NCBI GenBank assembly: GCA_003557485.1 | Contig: PWOI01000020.1 | Location: 1-7,475, forward strand | Source: Elusimicrobiota bacterium | Lineage (GTDB): Bacteria > CG03 > SLGR01 > PWQF01 | Direction of reading: 5' to 3' | DNA: 7,475 bases | Shown: positions 2 through 7,475 of the stretch, piece after piece | Layout: every line of letters starts with the position of its first letter | Position numbering within the stretch: position 1 is the stretch's first letter | The notes under the pieces: generated by a model | What the model was told of the DNA's origin: nothing | Database searches by the model: none | What the model saw: only the letters and a program-made list of their open reading frames with translations | Program-made: the position numbers and the translations under genes

Positions 2-1099
2 CCTGCAGGCGCTTCACTACACCTTGACATACCATTCTCTATCGAAGATCTGAAGCACGGCATTAAAAAAGCAGCAGGACTTGGCACATGTATCAGCATG
101 AGCAGCAACAGTGGACAGATCTACTTTTCTTCAAAAATAATGCGGAACTTTTACAAGGAGGCGCTTCTATATGCAAACTCCGAAGTAAATACGCTCATTC
201 TGGGCGAAACGGGAACCGGAAAAGAGATGGTGGCCAGGCTACTGCACCACTATAACAATCAACGCAGCAGCGGCCCATTTATATGCGTCAATTGCGGCGC
301 AATACCTGAAGGTCTTTTTGAAGCCGAGTTTTTTGGCTACTCTCCAGGGGCATTCACTGGTGCCTCACACAGCCACGCTGGATATTTTGAACAAGCAAAT
401 GGCGGAACAATATTTCTTGATGAAATTGGCGATCTCCCTCTGTACCAGCAGGTCAAATTACTTCGTGTCATAGAGCAACAATCCATAACTCCACTAGGGT
501 CGAGGCGCAAAATATCGCTCGACTTCAGGCTTATCACCGCCACTAATCGCGATTTATATAGCATGGTGTGCGAAGGGCAGTTTCGGCCTGACCTATATTA
601 CAGAATCGCGGTTGCTATACTTGACCTTCCCGACCTTGAAGCGAGAGGGAAAATAGAAAAATGCCAGTTATTCTCTCACCTCATGTCCTTAATTTCTAAA
701 AAAGAGGGTATACGCACTCCTGATCTCCCTGACTGGCTACTTAACGCGGTCGGCAAAAGGGTTTTCAATGGGAACATAAGGGAAATGATGAACATCGCTG
801 AACGCGTATTTTTAAAATACCGTATCGGTGGAACGTGGAGTAAAAAAGCCATCTTACCTATAATCGAAAATGAATCAGAAGCGCTAATGCCAGCAGCACA
901 CCCCTTTACCGATCATGATCTCGCCGTGGAGAAAAATGAAATACTGGATGCCTTGCAACGCAACCACTGGGTAAGGAAAAAGGCTGCCATGGACCTCGGC
1001 ATAAGCCGTAAGGTGCTATGGGAAAAAATGCATAAGCATAACTTATATAACCATCCCGACCACGTAGGAAAGCGCCCCAGGCAACGGAGGGCAAAGTGA
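2..1099 (+). CDS. Sigma-54-dependent transcriptional activator (enhancer-binding protein), 5'-partial
   Basis: Cytoplasmic AAA+ ATPase that remodels sigma-54 RNA polymerase to open promoters. The frame has no stop back to position 2. The first in-frame ATG (position 98) has no Shine-Dalgarno at normal distance, so the gene probably starts outside the window. The 32 upstream codons include GASLHLDIPFSIEDL, which resembles the end of a receiver domain, with Ile where the conserved Lys of the KPF motif should be. Numbering from the Met at 98: Walker A GETGTGKE 36-43, sigma-54-contact GAFTGA 84-89, Walker B GGTIFLDE 102-109, sensor I ATNRDL 148-153, Arg-finger region with R163 and R169, sensor II GNIREM 225-230, and a Fis-type helix-turn-helix about 277-316 (KAAMDLGISRKVLWEKM), then a basic tail. 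All activator motifs look intact. Its stop overlaps the ABC transporter start by 4 nt. The degenerate receiver suggests control other than classical phosphorylation (inference, FleQ as precedent). Family is certain; target genes are inferred. Confidence 0.93.
   Translation, partial: PAGASLHLDIPFSIEDLKHGIKKAAGLGTCISMSSNSGQIYFSSKIMRNFYKEALLYANSEVNTLILGETGTGKEMVARLLHHYNNQRSSGPFICVNCGAIPEGLFEAEFFGYSPGAFTGASHSHAGYFEQANGGTIFLDEIGDLPLYQQVKLLRVIEQQSITPLGSRRKISLDFRLITATNRDLYSMVCEGQFRPDLYYRIAVAILDLPDLEARGKIEKCQLFSHLMSLISKKEGIRTPDLPDWLLNAVGKRVFNGNIREMMNIAERVFLKYRIGGTWSKKAILPIIENESEALMPAAHPFTDHDLAVEKNEILDALQRNHWVRKKAAMDLGISRKVLWEKMHKHNLYNHPDHVGKRPRQRRAK
1086..1090 (+). promoter_or_regulatory. Ribosome binding site setting the GTG start of the ABC transporter
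   Basis: GGAGG lies inside the last codons of the regulator gene, 5 nt before the GTG at 1096. It supports a GTG start and the 4-nt GTGA overlap with the regulator stop, an arrangement that normally couples translation of the two genes. Confidence 0.75.
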
Positions 1100-3246
1100 G
1101 CGCAACAGAAGCCCAAGCTCAGGAAAAAAGCAATGCCGATGCTGAGAAATCACATTCAGCAGTTTACGCATTCTGTCTTGTATCAGCATTTCATAACTCA
1201 CCATTAGACCCTGAGCAGCTCGCAATAACGGAGGGAATCAGCAAAGAAAAAGCCGGGACAGCGGATCTTATACATCTAGCCTCAAGGCACCGCTTCAAGG
1301 CTAAGCAGGTAAATCTTGCATGGGAAGATCTTGAGCGACAAAGCTTTCCAGCAGTATTAGAGCTTAAAAATGGACAGTTCCTGGTAATTGCTCGTGTAGA
1401 ATCTGAACAAGCTGTCTTAGTTGAGCCTAGACAGGGCAAACCACTCATAGCAACGCGTGAACAGCTGGAAGAAATCTGGACCGGCAACCTGGTCTTGATG
1501 CGTCCTAAAATCGGATGGAACACGGAAAATCCACGATTTGGATTTGCCTGGTTTCTTCCAATGCTGAAGCGTTACAGGTCAAGCCTGACAGAGGTAGGCA
1601 TTGCCGCTTTTGTAATTCAGGTATTTGCGCTGGCCACGCCTCTATTCACCTTGCTCATCATTGACAAGGTTTTGGTTCATCGCTCTATTTCCACTCTTAA
1701 TGTATTAGCCGGCGCCATGCTGGCCATTCTGCTTTTCGAGGCAGTTTTGGGCATTCTGCGTGCTCAGTTAATGACACGCACAACATACCGTGTAGATGCA
1801 ACACTGGGCATGAAGGTGTATGAGCACCTTCTCAGCGTCCCATTAAGATACTTTGAACAACGCAAAGTTGGTGACACAGTTGCCAGAGTCAAGGAGATGG
1901 AAACGATACGCCAATTCCTTACTGGCTCTAGCATGATGGCAATAATTGACCTGCTTTTTGTAGGCGTATTCTTGCTTGTCATGTTTTTAATAAGTTACCA
2001 GTTAACGCTATTAGTTATAGCCATGCTTCCTCTACTGGTTGGTCTATCCATCATAACTTACCCGACCATCAGGAAGCGAATGGTCGACCGACTTGAAAAA
2101 AGTGCTGAATATCAATCATTCCTTAACGAAACCATAAGCAGCATACAGACTATAAAGTCTCTATCTGCTGAGAAGCAGATGGCAAGGCGCTGGGACTCCT
2201 TGCTTGCCAGCTATGCTACTGCATCATACAAAAGTGACTCGCTTTCCGGAATTGTCGGATCTATCGGCCAGGTGATGCAAAGGCTAATAACGCTTGCCAT
2301 TCTATGGTACGGCGTGCAGCTTGCTCTAGATGGATCAATTACAGCAGGCCAGCTAATTGCTTTCAACATGATTGCAAGCCAAGTAACCAGCCCAGTGCTA
2401 CGCATGGTACAGACCTGGCAAGGCTTGCAACAAGTTGGACTATCCATCGAAAGGCTGGGTGATTTAATGAACCCCCCTCAGGAGCCTATACTTAACACTG
2501 GGCGACAAAACCTCAAGCCATTGCAGGGCAAAGTGGAAGTGGAAAATGTTGAGTACCGCTATCGCCCGGACCTGGACCCTGTGATCAAGGGAGTCAGCTT
2601 TACCATTCAACCGGGAAGTTTTGTCGGTATCGTAGGCCGCAGTGGGTCGGGAAAAAGTACCTTGGCGAAGCTGCTTCAGCGGCTATACCTCCCCAGCTCT
2701 GGAAAAATACGTTTTGATAATATAGACCTTAACGAAGTAGACCCCCGCTGGCTAAGACGCCAGATAGGGGTAGTACCTCAAGAGGGTAGTCTTTTCGCTG
2801 GTACTGTTCGTGAAAATATTTCACTCCATCTTCCTGACGCTCCCATGAGCAGCATTGTAGCTGCTGCAAGACTTGCAGGTGCGGAAAAATTTATAGAGAA
2901 CCTCCCAGCAGGTTATGAAACACCAATTGGCGAGCGTGGCGCTATACTTTCTGGCGGACAGCGACAGCGCTTGGCTATCGCTCGCGCCCTGCTTGCAAAC
3001 CCCAGGATTTTAATATTTGACGAGGCAACTAGCGCACTTGATAAAGCTGCACAGCGAACCATTGAGGCTAGCATTCAAAAGGTCCGCCAAGGTAGAACCG
3101 TTTTCATGGTAGCTCACTCACTTGAAGCTATTCAGCATGCCGATATTGTATTAGTCATGGAAAATGGAAGGATTGTCGAGTCAGGAAGCCACAAAGAGCT
3201 CATGGAAAGAAAAGGCACTTTCTACAAACTTTTCCAGGAGGTATAG
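1096..3246 (+). CDS. HlyB-type type I secretion ABC transporter (permease/ATPase) with inactive C39-like domain
   Basis: Inner-membrane ATPase that drives one-step export of an unfolded protein through an adaptor and a TolC-like duct. Length 716 aa, close to HlyB (about 707). Order: C39-like domain about 18-135, membrane domain about 160-440 with several helices, nucleotide-binding domain about 478-716. Visible motifs: Walker A GRSGSGKST 514-522, Q-loop Q562, signature LSGGQ 618-622, Walker B RILIFDE 637-643 with catalytic E643, D-loop SALD 646-649, H-loop H674. Many stretches match HlyB as I remember it (IDKVLVHR, YFEQRKVGDTVARV, IGQVMQ, GQLIAFNM). The N-terminal domain lacks the peptidase Cys and His: aligned from memory to HlyB, Ser21 and Gln94 occupy those places. 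It therefore should not cleave double-glycine leaders and more likely docks cargo. The start is GTG with GGAGG 5 nt upstream; the next gene begins 2 nt after the stop. LapB-like transporters are the nearest alternative family; overall likeness favours the HlyB group. Confidence 0.97.
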   Translation: MSATEAQAQEKSNADAEKSHSAVYAFCLVSAFHNSPLDPEQLAITEGISKEKAGTADLIHLASRHRFKAKQVNLAWEDLERQSFPAVLELKNGQFLVIARVESEQAVLVEPRQGKPLIATREQLEEIWTGNLVLMRPKIGWNTENPRFGFAWFLPMLKRYRSSLTEVGIAAFVIQVFALATPLFTLLIIDKVLVHRSISTLNVLAGAMLAILLFEAVLGILRAQLMTRTTYRVDATLGMKVYEHLLSVPLRYFEQRKVGDTVARVKEMETIRQFLTGSSMMAIIDLLFVGVFLLVMFLISYQLTLLVIAMLPLLVGLSIITYPTIRKRMVDRLEKSAEYQSFLNETISSIQTIKSLSAEKQMARRWDSLLASYATASYKSDSLSGIVGSIGQVMQRLITLAILWYGVQLALDGSITAGQLIAFNMIASQVTSPVLRMVQTWQGLQQVGLSIERLGDLMNPPQEPILNTGRQNLKPLQGKVEVENVEYRYRPDLDPVIKGVSFTIQPGSFVGIVGRSGSGKSTLAKLLQRLYLPSSGKIRFDNIDLNEVDPRWLRRQIGVVPQEGSLFAGTVRENISLHLPDAPMSSIVAAARLAGAEKFIENLPAGYETPIGERGAILSGGQRQRLAIARALLANPRILIFDEATSALDKAAQRTIEASIQKVRQGRTVFMVAHSLEAIQHADIVLVMENGRIVESGSHKELMERKGTFYKLFQEV
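3236..3241 (+). promoter_or_regulatory. Ribosome binding site setting the GTG start of the adaptor gene
   Basis: A perfect AGGAGG inside the final codons of the ABC gene sits 7 nt before the GTG at 3249. It favours this GTG over the in-frame ATG at 3261 and shows tight coupling to the ABC gene. Confidence 0.8.
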
Positions 3247-3248
3247 CT

Positions 3249-4634
3249 GTGGCCAAAATCATGAGAAAACTATCTCGCGTGGTTAGCCGCTTGACTTCTC
3301 GTTACAGCGAGACAAAAAAGCAGCGCAGGACAGATAGGCTTAAAAAGCTTGAGCAAGAGTTTCTTGATCCGCTCAGGTCAATTCAAGAAACTGAGCCTCC
3401 GGCCGGAAGGAGACGTGTACTATGGGCACTACTGGCTTTACTGCTGTGTGCGCTCATTTGGTCTTGGTTTGCACGCATTGATGTCGTGGCCACTGCCAAT
3501 GGTCGATTTATACCTGACGGCCGTAATAAAGTAGTGCAAAGCATGGAGCTTAGCGCTGTAGAAGAGGTCTTGGTCGAAGTAGGGCAACGCGTGGAGTCCG
3601 GTCAACTGCTGGCCAAACTGGATGAAACACTGGCCGCAGCAAGCAATGAGTCCATTGAAAAGGCTGCAAGACTCAATATGGCTCGACGGCACAGACTACA
3701 AAGCACCCTGAGCGGCACCGCGCACAATATCCATCAATCAGACGAGATACATAAACTCAACGATGATATATGGAAAACAGAGAAAGCAAGGCATTCAAGT
3801 GTCCGCAAGTCAATGAACGCCAACATTCGTGAAGTGCAAGCAGAGCTACGATCACATGAATCACGACTTCGGCGGCAAATTGAGCGCCAAGAGCTGGTTA
3901 GGCAGAGGACAGAAAGCGCTAGCCGCTTAGCAGAAATTGGCGCTATAGCTAGAAACGACTACATAATGCTCCGTGAAGAAAGTATTTTACTACAAAGTGA
4001 TATCGACTCGTCTCGAGAAAAAATACAAATTCTTGAAGAACGCTTGGTCAACGCAACTGAAGCACTGGAACAGATTGAAGCGGAGCGACGACTCGATCTC
4101 CTTGCCAGCTTAGAAAGCACTATGAGTGAGTCATACCAGCTAACTGAGCAGCAATCTCATATCGTACATTCCTTGGAGAGCAGAAGCCTTCACGCCCCCG
4201 TTTCGGGTACCGTGAAGTCCATAAATGTTTCAACACCAGGAGAGGTTGTTACAGCTGGGTCCAGCATTATCGAAATTGTCCCTGACGAAGCGCCCCTTCT
4301 TGTTGAGCTGGATCTTTCGGATAGAGATTCCGGATTTGTAGAAGTAGGTCAGCGGGTAGAAATAAAAGTTGAAGCTTTTCCATTCACTCAATATGGCGTA
4401 TTGCCTGGCAAGCTAGTTTGGGTTAGCGCAGATGCACAGACCACCGGCAAGGAAGGCTACTACCGAGCCTGGGTTGAGCCTGACAAGCGCTATCTTGAGA
4501 GAGGTAACCAACGCGTCTCAGTGCGTCCTGGCATGACTGCATCAGTTGATGTCAACACAGGCGAAAGAAGAGTGCTTGAGTTTTTTCTTTCCCCTCTTTC
4601 ACGCAACATCAGCGAGGGCCTTAGCGTGAGATGA
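3249..4634 (+). CDS. HlyD-family type I secretion periplasmic adaptor (membrane fusion protein)
   Basis: Periplasmic bridge between the inner-membrane ABC transporter and the outer-membrane TolC-like channel. Length 461 aa (HlyD 478). Residues 1-56 form a strongly basic cytoplasmic segment, comparable to the HlyD N-terminus that takes part in substrate recognition. One membrane helix lies at about 57-75 (VLWALLALLLCALIWSWF). The first lipoyl half-motif follows at about 83-125 (GRFIPDGRNKVVQ ... VEVGQRVESGQLLAKLD), then a long charged coiled-coil hairpin about 130-305, the second lipoyl half at about 311-345 (SLHAPVSGTV), and a beta-barrel region about 350-440 with the family stretch IKVEAFPFTQYG at 372-383. 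The C-terminus LSPLSRNISEGLSVR strongly resembles that of HlyD. No truncation is seen. It lies 2 nt behind the ABC gene, so the two should be made together. Identification is firm; which cargo it carries is inferred from context. Confidence 0.96.
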   Translation: MAKIMRKLSRVVSRLTSRYSETKKQRRTDRLKKLEQEFLDPLRSIQETEPPAGRRRVLWALLALLLCALIWSWFARIDVVATANGRFIPDGRNKVVQSMELSAVEEVLVEVGQRVESGQLLAKLDETLAAASNESIEKAARLNMARRHRLQSTLSGTAHNIHQSDEIHKLNDDIWKTEKARHSSVRKSMNANIREVQAELRSHESRLRRQIERQELVRQRTESASRLAEIGAIARNDYIMLREESILLQSDIDSSREKIQILEERLVNATEALEQIEAERRLDLLASLESTMSESYQLTEQQSHIVHSLESRSLHAPVSGTVKSINVSTPGEVVTAGSSIIEIVPDEAPLLVELDLSDRDSGFVEVGQRVEIKVEAFPFTQYGVLPGKLVWVSADAQTTGKEGYYRAWVEPDKRYLERGNQRVSVRPGMTASVDVNTGERRVLEFFLSPLSRNISEGLSVR

Positions 4635-4664: not shown

Positions 4665-4695
4665 ACAAAAAAATATTCATCAGCAACAAAAAAAT
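4665..4695. repeat. Two ACAAAAAAAT A-tract repeats spaced 21 bp
   Basis: An identical 10-bp unit, ACAAAAAAAT, occurs at 4665-4674 and 4686-4695. The 21-bp spacing equals two helical turns, so both A-tracts face the same side and should bend the DNA. It lies upstream of the sigma-54-type promoter candidate, where bending helps a distant activator reach polymerase. The repeat is seen directly; the bending role is inferred. Confidence 0.5.
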
Positions 4696-4705
4696 CAATT
4701 ATTCA
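4693..4705 (+). promoter_or_regulatory. Possible IHF binding site
   Basis: AATCAATTATTCA matches the IHF consensus WATCAANNNNTTR at all fixed positions but one (C for T at the second of the paired T). It directly follows an A7 tract. IHF commonly bends DNA between activator sites and sigma-54 promoters. It sits about 110 bp before the predicted transcription start, somewhat far but usable. Short AT-rich matches arise easily by chance. Confidence 0.35.
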
Positions 4706-4784
4706 CGAACGAAAGGGTTTATCTCCATGACTTTATTGCTATATTAAAATCGCTTTTGCCCTGGTTCAAACCAACGATAAGCCC

Positions 4785-4801
4785 TAGGCATAGCTGTTGC
4801 C
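4785..4801 (+). promoter_or_regulatory. Candidate sigma-54 (-24/-12) promoter for the putative cargo gene
   Basis: TAGGCATAGCTGTTGCC carries GG (4787-4788) and GC (4799-4800) separated by exactly 10 bp, with the CA after GG and the TT before GC also matching the TGGCAC-N5-TTGC consensus. Mismatches are A for T before GG, T and A for the following C and G, and C after TTGC. Predicted start is about 4812, leaving a leader of about 97 nt to the ATG at 4909. The sigma-54 activator encoded upstream gives it context. It is the only + strand GG-N10-GC arrangement I found in the gap. Confidence 0.5.
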
Positions 4802-4810: not shown

Positions 4811-4894
4811 CATCAGGAGAGACCGGACGAAGCATCACATCTGTCTTTTGCTATGCATCAAAAATGAGCCAAAAATTGGACTTATTTTCTTTCT

Positions 4895-4908: not shown

Positions 4909-5499
4909 ATGGCACTTCTCGGTGGTCTTCTTAATCTTGACGGTCTGCTTGGCGGCCTGCTTGGCAGCAGTAATGGCCAAGGCACCAGCGAAGTTGTTAA
5001 CGTCAGCAACGCCGCGGCGCTTAACACAGAGGGCCTGGTCGATAGCATGATCGGTGGCATGGATAGCCTGATCAACACCACGCTTGACACCACCTTCAAC
5101 GGCGTACACAGCTTGGTAGAAAGCACTGTCGCCAGCAGCGCCTGTGCAATGAACTCCGTTGCAGAGAGCGCCATTGCCTTTACCGAGCAGAGCGCTACCA
5201 AGGTTTTTGACGGCAATGGAAACCTGATTTCTGAAAGCGCCACTCTTAGCACAGCCCCCGGCGCTGAGATCATGCAAACTTACGCTGCTGAAACCCTCGG
5301 TCCGCTGACTGCCGGCGTGGGCAACGGCATCGACGGCATGCTGAGCGGCGTAGGCGAAGGGGCCGGCCAGGCCATGGCCAACCTCGGCAGTGGCGTTCCG
5401 GAAATGCTGCCGGGTACCACGTCAGCACTGGGTGCCGATATCGTCGCTGCCTCTGACAGCGGTGGTCTGGTGACCAACCTGCTGGACGTTCTGATCTAA
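4909..5499 (+). CDS. Small acidic glycine-rich protein, putative type I secretion cargo (unrecognised)
   Basis: I do not recognise this 196-residue protein. It has 19 Asp/Glu, one Lys (K97), no Arg and one Cys (C79), so it is extremely acidic. There is no Sec signal peptide: the hydrophobic N-terminus lacks any basic residue and contains D11. That N-terminus is built from LLGGLL units (3-8 and 13-18). Residues 42-90 read as amphipathic helix with regular small/hydrophobic spacing. Residues 130-165 are Gly-rich (GVGNGIDGMLSGVGEGAG) but have no RTX nonapeptides. The C-terminus, GGLVTNLLDVLI, ends in Asp plus three hydrophobic residues, as in several type I substrates. It follows the ABC and adaptor genes, has its own ribosome site and promoter candidate, and is closed by a strong terminator, which together suggest an abundant dedicated cargo. 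It is markedly GC-richer than its neighbours. Activity (surface protein, bacteriocin or other) cannot be read from the sequence. Confidence 0.9.
   Translation: MALLGGLLNLDGLLGGLLGSSNGQGTSEVVNVSNAAALNTEGLVDSMIGGMDSLINTTLDTTFNGVHSLVESTVASSACAMNSVAESAIAFTEQSATKVFDGNGNLISESATLSTAPGAEIMQTYAAETLGPLTAGVGNGIDGMLSGVGEGAGQAMANLGSGVPEMLPGTTSALGADIVAASDSGGLVTNLLDVLI
4945..4968 (+). repeat. Tandem 12-bp repeat encoding LLGG-LLGS
   Basis: CTGCTTGGCGGC is followed at once by CTGCTTGGCAGC (11 of 12 identical). It lies in the Leu/Gly-rich start of the putative cargo gene and suggests growth of this segment by small duplication. Confidence 0.6.
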
Positions 5500-5514
5500 G
5501 TACGTCGAGATAGT

Positions 5515-5549
5515 GGGGCTCTCTCTAGTCGCGGGGGAGCCCCGTTTTT
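5515..5549 (+). terminator. Strong rho-independent terminator after the putative cargo gene
   Basis: An 11-bp stem pairs GGGGCTCTCTC (5515-5525) with GGGGGAGCCCC (5533-5543), using G-T pairs near the loop. The loop is 7 nt, and G then five T follow. It starts 16 nt after the cargo stop. On the - strand no T-run follows the stem, so it is at best a weak stop for the converging TolC-like gene, which ends at 5556. Confidence 0.9.
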
Positions 5550-5555
5550 AAAAAA

Positions 5556-6965
5556 TTATTCAGTTTCCATCATCTTGCGGAATTGCTGTGGTAGCACAGT
5601 GGCTAGCACTGCCCAGCCTGACATTCTGACGGCTAGCTCCTGACGCTTCTGCTGCGCGACTCGTCTGACCCACTCAGCTTCCAGCTTAACTGCCTCCATG
5701 TTGCTACCAAAACCATGCCTGGCTTTGGCGCGATGCAATTCCATAGCTTCCCGAGCGCTTGCTTCAGATTTTTTTATAATTTCTAGCTCCTGGCGGTTTG
5801 AACGCAAATCACTCAAGGCCTCTTGAGCCAAGTCGAGAAGCTCATGCTGTAACTCATCATACCGTAACTGTGCCAAACGCAGTGCTGATCTCGATGAATC
5901 GATGTTTGCTCGTTCCGATGTAAAGGGTCCCAAAGTCTGATTCAAAGAAAGCCCAATGGTGAAATTGTCTCTCCCCATATCATCTATAGCATCCATAGCG
6001 TTCTGTGAATCAACTCCAATAAAGGAGTAGTTTGCAACAAGAGATATTTTGGGAAGTATGGCACCCCGCGAAGATTCTAGTTTTCGGTGCGCAGAATCAA
6101 TGCGATTTTTTGCTGCTTTAAGTGATGGATGCTCTGTAATGTGAGCTTGAGGTTCAACAAGATGCATTACCGGAGGTGCAGGTATAGTGCCCGCATCGGT
6201 ATGTAGGTTGCTCCCTATTGCTTGGCGGATGCCAAGATGGCGTAGCAGTCGAGCTGATATATGCTGTCTATGTGTCTGGTTCTCCAGGATTTCCGACTGA
6301 GTGTCAAGCCAATCTGATTCTGCTGCTTGTACTGCAGTCTTGGCCAGCCGGCCTTCAGCGAAGCCCTTCTGGGCTAGTGAGAGTCTTTTTTTGAAAAGGG
6401 CAGCCCGGTGTTTGCTGGCTTGTGTAGAAAGCTCGGCACTGGCCAAGTCGACATATAGCTTTAATGCTTGCAGGTACTCGTTGGTTAAAACCGCTTCTAG
6501 CTCTGCTTCGCTGGCGGCAAGCTCTGAAGCTGCAGCGCGCAAACCAGCCTGATGCTGCCCACCACTGAATAGACTAAGTTCAGCAGAGAGCGCAGCATAG
6601 CTGTTGTAGAAGCTCTCACTGGCATCAACGACGCTGCCGCCAATAATGGTGCTTCCACTGCCGGAGTAGTTCTGCGATCGGAGAGTTTGTAATGATAGAT
6701 CCAGTTGTGGGAGGAAAGCCCCTCTTGCTTGATTTTTTTGAGACTCCGCCTGAAGGGCTATTTCCCTTTGCTTCAGCATTGCTGGGGTACTGGATGCAAC
6801 CTGCTTAAGCACTTGCTGCAGTGTCATGCGGTGAGCTGATTGTTCCTGTTTTTGCAGTGAGCGCTCTGAGCTAGTGCTTATCGAGTTGGCTACGGCTGGG
6901 GCTGAGAGCAGCTGCGAAAGCGCAAGCAATATGACCGTAAACCTTGGCTTGATGCCTTGTTTCAT
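5556..6965 (-). CDS. TolC-family outer-membrane channel of the type I secretion system
   Basis: Outer-membrane and periplasmic duct that completes the exporter formed with the ABC protein and adaptor. Length 469 aa. A Sec signal peptide is clear: basic start (K2, K6, R8), hydrophobic core 10-21, likely cleavage after AVA at residue 26. The two-fold repeat of the family is visible. The first half has QARGAFLPQLDLSL at about 79-92, and the second has HPSLKAAKNRIDSAHRKLESSRGAILPKISL, beginning at 279. Each is followed by strand-like segments (YAALSAELSLFSGG; FTIGLSLNQTLGPF) and long helices. The start ATG overlaps the stop of the upstream 160-residue gene (ATGA); only a weak GGA lies about 12 nt upstream, so translation probably depends on coupling. 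It is transcribed towards the cargo gene on the opposite strand. Locus context suggests a dedicated channel of the AggA/LapE/CyaE kind rather than the housekeeping TolC (inference). Confidence 0.95.
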   Translation of the reverse strand: MKQGIKPRFTVILLALSQLLSAPAVANSISTSSERSLQKQEQSAHRMTLQQVLKQVASSTPAMLKQREIALQAESQKNQARGAFLPQLDLSLQTLRSQNYSGSGSTIIGGSVVDASESFYNSYAALSAELSLFSGGQHQAGLRAAASELAASEAELEAVLTNEYLQALKLYVDLASAELSTQASKHRAALFKKRLSLAQKGFAEGRLAKTAVQAAESDWLDTQSEILENQTHRQHISARLLRHLGIRQAIGSNLHTDAGTIPAPPVMHLVEPQAHITEHPSLKAAKNRIDSAHRKLESSRGAILPKISLVANYSFIGVDSQNAMDAIDDMGRDNFTIGLSLNQTLGPFTSERANIDSSRSALRLAQLRYDELQHELLDLAQEALSDLRSNRQELEIIKKSEASAREAMELHRAKARHGFGSNMEAVKLEAEWVRRVAQQKRQELAVRMSGWAVLATVLPQQFRKMMETE

Positions 6966-7444
6966 ACGAGCGAAGTGTCCAAGTCCGCAGGGCTGGCCAT
7001 TTCCAACAATGAAAGAGTCTGCAGAGGTACCTGATTGGCAAAAGAGGGCATCTCGGCAGCAATCATACTGCCTGCGTCGTGGAGTAGCATTTCGATTTCA
7101 TTTGCAGATTGGCTTGCTTCAAGGTTGATGCGATTTTCCAGGCCATGGTTAATACGATCGATGGCAGCATCGTGATGGAATCGCTCTTCGATAACTACGC
7201 CGCCATCTTCTTGTGGTGTGATGTTTTTTTCCAAGACACCCTGATTCATATTTGAGCCGAGCAAAGAGTGTAAGGAAACAGCGCTGCTTAAAATGCCTCC
7301 TAAGCCAATAAGGCTAGCTTCCATAAAGGTTTCACTAATGTCCTGATTGAACTGCATGGCCATGCGATCAATGCTGGCATTGATAGTCTGGTTTGTTAGT
7401 GAGGCTAGGCTGTTGCTAAAATCATGTGGAAGTAGGTTTGACAT
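6962..7444 (-). CDS. Small acidic protein of unknown function coupled to the TolC-like gene
   Basis: Unrecognised 160-residue protein with 21 Asp/Glu against 5 Lys/Arg and no Cys. No signal peptide or clear membrane segment is seen; the most hydrophobic stretch is at about 43-62 (SLIGLGGILSSAVSLHSLLG). The first 60 residues look amphipathic and rich in Ser, Asn and Leu; residues 70-130 are charged and helical in character. The C-terminus, PADLDTSLV, is hydrophobic at the very end. A strong ribosome site (TGAGGAG, minus strand of 7450-7456) sits 5 nt before the ATG, and the stop overlaps the TolC-like start by 4 nt, so this is a real gene co-made with the channel. It could be a second cargo, a cargo chaperone or an accessory factor; the acidity and lack of Sec signal resemble the 196-residue protein, and a short stretch (residues 15-28) reads like residues 53-66 of it. 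None of these roles is established. Its promoter lies beyond the right edge. Confidence 0.8.
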   Translation of the reverse strand: MSNLLPHDFSNSLASLTNQTINASIDRMAMQFNQDISETFMEASLIGLGGILSSAVSLHSLLGSNMNQGVLEKNITPQEDGGVVIEERFHHDAAIDRINHGLENRINLEASQSANEIEMLLHDAGSMIAAEMPSFANQVPLQTLSLLEMASPADLDTSLV

Positions 7445-7449
7445 GATAG

Positions 7450-7456
7450 CTCCTCA
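7450..7456 (-). promoter_or_regulatory. Ribosome binding site of the 160-residue protein gene
   Basis: The minus strand reads TGAGGAG here, 5 nt before the ATG that ends at 7444. It fixes the start. The remaining 19 bases to the right edge hold no promoter I can recognise. Confidence 0.7.
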
Positions 7457-7475
7457 GGTAGGAAAAACTGGTCGG

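Follow-up and report, generated by a model that had tools for sequence, protein, structure and literature searches.

Several type I secreted proteins are under the control of regulators of the enhancer-binding protein family. In Pseudomonas, FleQ acts on lapA and on the LapA type I secretion transporter (PMC6120874). As at the locus described here, where type I secretion of the cargo is probable, an NtrC-family enhancer-binding protein is combined with a type I secreted protein and its transporter, both of which it controls in the case of the adhesin LapA. In contrast to the activator of our locus, however, FleQ is a global flagellar and biofilm regulator which is encoded outside the transporter operon and works with sigma-70 at some biofilm operons, and LapA is a giant adhesin. 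The cabABC genes of Vibrio vulnificus are regulated by BrpR, BrpT and BrpS, and the cabA promoter, which is bound by BrpT and BrpS, was assigned as sigma-70-like (PMC6978666). Here, a VpsR homolog stands at the top of the cascade that controls a matrix protein and the type I system dedicated to it, but the genes of cargo and transporter lie in a single operon and the action of BrpR goes through BrpT. In Vibrio cholerae, VpsR and FlrA act on the adhesins craA/frhA (PMC6890996). These are likewise large secreted proteins under enhancer-binding-protein-family regulators; they differ in being giant adhesins whose regulators are encoded elsewhere, and the effect of FlrA on frhA may be indirect. The first-pass annotation of the DNA stretch analyzed here regarded sigma-54 control of a type I cargo as uncommon, a view that has to be tempered in the light of FleQ and VpsR/FlrA, with the reservation that several of these precedents are sigma-70-dependent or indirect. 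A non-exhaustive literature search yielded no precedent in which the transporter operon itself includes the activator gene. Among the activators that the plasmid collection yielded, those from Cupriavidus and Caballeronia come closest; they are 45-50% identical over the AAA+ and HTH domains and lie beside Tad/Flp-pilus-like genes (the neighbour was called TadG-like by eye only), but no homologous type I secretion operon stands alongside in the stretches read.

The analyzed window is a whole contig (7475 bases) of a 2.07 Mb draft genome. It carries a compact type I secretion module (Table 1), in which an operon of activator, ABC and HlyD genes is accompanied by an orphan gene for a small cargo and by the genes for a TolC-type channel and its companion. 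With ABC transporter, HlyD adaptor and TolC channel, all parts of a type I secretion system are present, although the channel scores below the cutoff of TIGR01844. The activator matches the Pfam families Sigma54_activat (1.7e-62) and HTH_8 (3.5e-11), the latter a Fis-type HTH, and thus has the AAA+ and DNA-binding domains of an enhancer-binding protein. Walker A (GETGTGKE, nt 203-226), GAFTGA (nt 347-364) and Walker B (nt 401-424) are all intact; these motifs are needed for sigma-54 activation. The activator reading frame and the ABC gene share 4 nt, so the earlier statement that placed the activator in the transporter operon is correct; the HlyD gene starts 2 nt after the ABC gene. Structure prediction for the activator gave an unusable model.

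Table 1. Features of the 7475-base window.
Feature	Position	Strand	Remarks
Sigma-54 activator (enhancer-binding protein)	2..1099	+	365 codons; N-terminal ~80 residues lost at contig end
Type I secretion ABC transporter, HlyB-type, C39-like N-terminal domain	1096..3246	+	TIGR01846 808 bits, cutoff 725.55
HlyD-type periplasmic adaptor	3249..4634	+	TIGR01843 326 bits, cutoff 208.65
Conserved intergenic block, candidate main cargo promoter	4693..4757	+	56/65 columns identical to Halomonas sp. Y3
Putative secreted cargo, 196 aa, family-less	4909..5499	+	only relatives found: the two cargo copies of Halomonas sp. Y3
Terminator-like hairpin with T-run	5514..5549	+	cargo and channel genes converge on it
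TolC-type outer membrane channel, inverted vs Y3	5556..6965	-	Pfam OEP 3.6e-39, above cutoff
160-aa protein, no assigned function	6962..7444	-	4-nt overlap with channel gene; 72% identical to Y3

The composition of the contig suggests that it stems from another bacterium and was probably misbinned. In tetranucleotide frequencies, the window correlates at 0.38 with the remainder of the sampled bin, for which 15 of the other contigs give 0.84-0.97, and at 0.94 with its homologous stretch in Halomonas sp. Y3. No sigma-54 activator-interacting domain (rpoN) was found in the assigned bin and no relatives of the cargo in 60 genomes around it. Because the contig is probably misbinned, the missing rpoN is uninformative about the window, and the contig should not be used for describing the organism of its bin. 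In Y3, which encodes rpoN, the homologous stretch has a GC content of 48-52% within flanks of mostly 64-68%, and therefore looks like a genomic island.

The cargo has no match in Pfam, NCBIfam or PHROGs. Its adjacency to the transporter genes and its conserved C-terminus suggest that the protein is probably a type I secreted substrate. Beyond Y3, orthologs were detected neither in the 60 relatives of the bin nor in 275 genomes of the Halomonas family and 390 genomes of the order, nor in plasmids and viral contigs, and peptide patterns of the cargo, searched against all genome contigs, hit only Halomonas sp. Y3. Further matches of the cargo search were short, low-scoring and probably due to chance; a 295-aa protein beside an Azotobacter transporter is no cargo homolog. 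The predicted structure is a low-confidence helix/beta-hairpin/helix (pLDDT 59.5) with no significant match in the PDB. The 160-aa protein, for which Pfam, NCBIfam and PHROGs gave no significant family, is kept together with the channel gene and could be a further substrate or an accessory protein.

Among the genomes searched, with few candidates scored per genome, an ortholog of the activator was also found only in Halomonas sp. Y3. There, the gene order is activator-ABC-HlyD-cargo a, followed by the 160-aa gene, the channel gene and an oppositely oriented second cargo gene (cargo b). Proteins of window and Y3 are 72-94% identical, with 94% for the ABC transporter and 83% for the activator, whose Y3 ortholog is full-length (445 aa). 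Third codon positions outside the cargo gene are only 54-61% identical, thus unconstrained sequence is heavily diverged between the two. Since only two loci are known, footprinting rests on this single pair.

For the region between HlyD and cargo genes, a local circuit had been proposed in which the activator switches on the cargo through a sigma-54-type promoter at 4785-4801. The letters of this element are as described: on the plus strand it reads TAGGCATAGCTGTTGCC, with GG at 4787-4788, a strict spacer of 10 nt and GC at 4799-4800, CA at 4789-4790 and TT at 4797-4798. Its end lies 108 bp before the cargo ATG (4909), and a transcription start would be predicted near 4812. The bare GG-N10-GC pattern occurs 65 times in the window, with 66.5 expected. 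Compared to the 16-nt consensus TGGCACGNNNNTTGCW, the element has four mismatches and therefore falls outside the list of 21 window sites with up to three. For scoring against TGGCACG-N4-TTGC, we used a matrix re-fitted from the 44 sequences and scores in Table 3 of PMC3224663; it is not the original matrix, has a leave-one-out error of ~0.5 and was applied with the published cutoff of 7.95. The element scores 8.35 (fit error ~0.5) and ranks fifth among the seven window sites at or above the cutoff, the four higher-scoring ones being intragenic. When the 274-bp intergenic region was shuffled, the best plus-strand site was this good with P = 0.0175, and the composition of the whole window predicts 0.047 sites as good. 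The element is above chance only marginally.

The GG-N10-GC motif is not kept upstream of the homologous cargo gene. At cargo a of Y3, the only close ortholog found, a 2-nt insertion turns it into GG-N12-GC, which scores 0.4 at the GC-aligned position. The stretch is 62% identical to Y3, i.e., at the neutral level for this divergence, in an alignment that contains gaps around the element. A sigma-54 promoter requires the 10-nt spacing. The two lineages could differ by turnover of a functional site. As it stands, this sigma-54-like site is weak as well as lineage-specific; it is probably not the main cargo promoter and should not be taken as the promoter.

A stretch further upstream in the same intergenic region (4693-4757) is better conserved: 86% of its columns are identical in Y3 (P = 4e-7 if 57% identity is taken as neutral), and it is single-copy in the Y3 genome. 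It contains an extended -10-like sequence, TGCTATATT, at 4737-4745, conserved in both loci and one mismatch from the extended -10 pattern TGNTATAAT. The start predicted from it is near 4752, so the block spans about -59 to +5. Extended -10 sequences are frequent by chance (seven in the window, 5.1 expected), the -35 region is poor, and a promoter scan of the block detected no sigma-70-type site with both hexamers. Rfam gave no hit above threshold in the intergenic region. We infer that the block is a candidate for the main cargo promoter. The same block also holds a possible short upstream reading frame with an ATG at 4727.

The strongest sign of sigma-54 control was found in Y3 upstream of cargo b. 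The sequence TGGCATGAAGCTTGCT (L003 10294-10309, minus strand) lies 80-95 bp before the ATG, has one mismatch from the consensus and scores 12.39 (shuffle P 0.0004). This equals, in the source table, the score of the sigma-54 site of pilA1 (12.38), which was characterised by primer extension (PMC3224663). The pattern TGGCAYGNNNNTTGCW matches only 8 times in the 4.09 Mb genome of Y3 (reversed-pattern control: 0), and six of the eight matches are located shortly before the start of a reading frame, one of them rpoN. With a site that is near-perfect and this rare in the genome, the idea of a local circuit is reasonable for the cargo family. The evidence for it comes from Y3 and not from the element at 4785-4801. 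We consider it more likely than not that one or more cargo copies of the family are under sigma-54 control.

Taking both loci together, we give somewhat better than even chances to an explanation in which sigma-54 acts at one or more cargo copies, the element at 4785-4801 is weak and the main promoter of the window's cargo lies in 4693-4757. The activator would most likely drive at least one cargo copy through sigma-54, as best seen at cargo b of Y3, where its action is suggested because the genes are adjacent. For the cargo copy beside HlyD, most transcription would more likely start in the conserved block, probably at an extended -10 promoter of the sigma-70/sigma-S type, and sigma-54 would contribute little or nothing to this copy. 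Both the sigma factor used and the action of the activator on the cargo promoters are what we infer from the two loci; a search for an activator-binding repeat common to the promoter regions compared revealed nothing convincing. The circuit proposed earlier thus stands in part, with an activator in the operon and a near-perfect promoter at cargo b, and probably loses the weak and unconserved element from which it had started. An activator inside a type I secretion operon together with a strong sigma-54 promoter would form a simple local circuit, here for a probable secreted protein family without known relatives.

It seems unlikely to us that 4785-4801 is itself a functional sigma-54 promoter of the cargo, switched by the neighbouring activator and starting near 4812. 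The correct spacing with GGCA and TTGC, its rank as the best plus-strand site of the intergenic region and the operon-encoded activator with an intact GAFTGA would all fit such a role, as would the strong site at a similar distance before the paralogous cargo of Y3. However, the score is close to the cutoff and exceeded inside genes of the same window, and at the Y3 ortholog both spacing and score are lost while identity is neutral. A chance origin is easier to accept, although we hold it to be less than an even bet. GGCA...TTGCC would then arise from overlapping palindromes (GGCA/TGCC, TGCCACAGTGGCA) that are bound by another regulator or by nothing. The frequency of GG-N10-GC in the window is in line with this, and the motif matches on both strands here (4787-4800 plus, 4788-4801 minus), but the extended matches GGCA and TTGC have the right strand for a promoter, and their distance to the gene that follows is plausible.

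The activator might also have other targets, namely the large adhesin genes neighbouring the module in Y3 or its own operon, both cargo copies being sigma-54-independent. In Y3, an adhesin-like reading frame of 1123 aa ends 215 bp before the activator gene, a second one of 2472 aa follows beyond cargo b, and a sigma-54-like site scoring 9.25 (L003 1636-1651) precedes the activator gene. We regard this possibility as doubtful, as the near-perfect site, so rare genome-wide, faces cargo b directly. A 12-bp inverted repeat, TATGCCAGTATG/CATGCTGGCATA (L003 1615-1651), overlaps the site before the activator gene and may point to autoregulation.

Window and Y3 also differ in the orientation of the channel genes. 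Positions 5008-7475 of the window align to the reverse of L003 7567-10049, i.e., the channel and 160-aa genes lie on a segment that has opposite orientations in the two loci and whose breakpoints coincide with the inverted cargo copies. In Y3, the proteins of cargo a and b are 87% identical and their genes share long identical runs of DNA. The inversion would fit recombination between the cargo copies. The contig ends in the apparent second arm of a hairpin that is located, in Y3, between cargo a and the 160-aa gene; a second cargo copy of the window, if any, is off the contig. We mention as an improbable further step that the inverted cargo copies could stand under different promoters, a distal sigma-54 one and a proximal conserved one, and that recombination flips the channel and its companion gene as a regulatory switch. 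If true, the flip would determine from which promoter system the channel genes are read and couple export to either program.

The two adhesin-like reading frames flanking the island in Y3 (L003 -1831 to 1540 and 10772 to 18190) appear by eye to have similar N-termini and long repeats. Further out, another HlyD/ABC/TolC-like set was noticed by eye at L003 -9872 to -5242.
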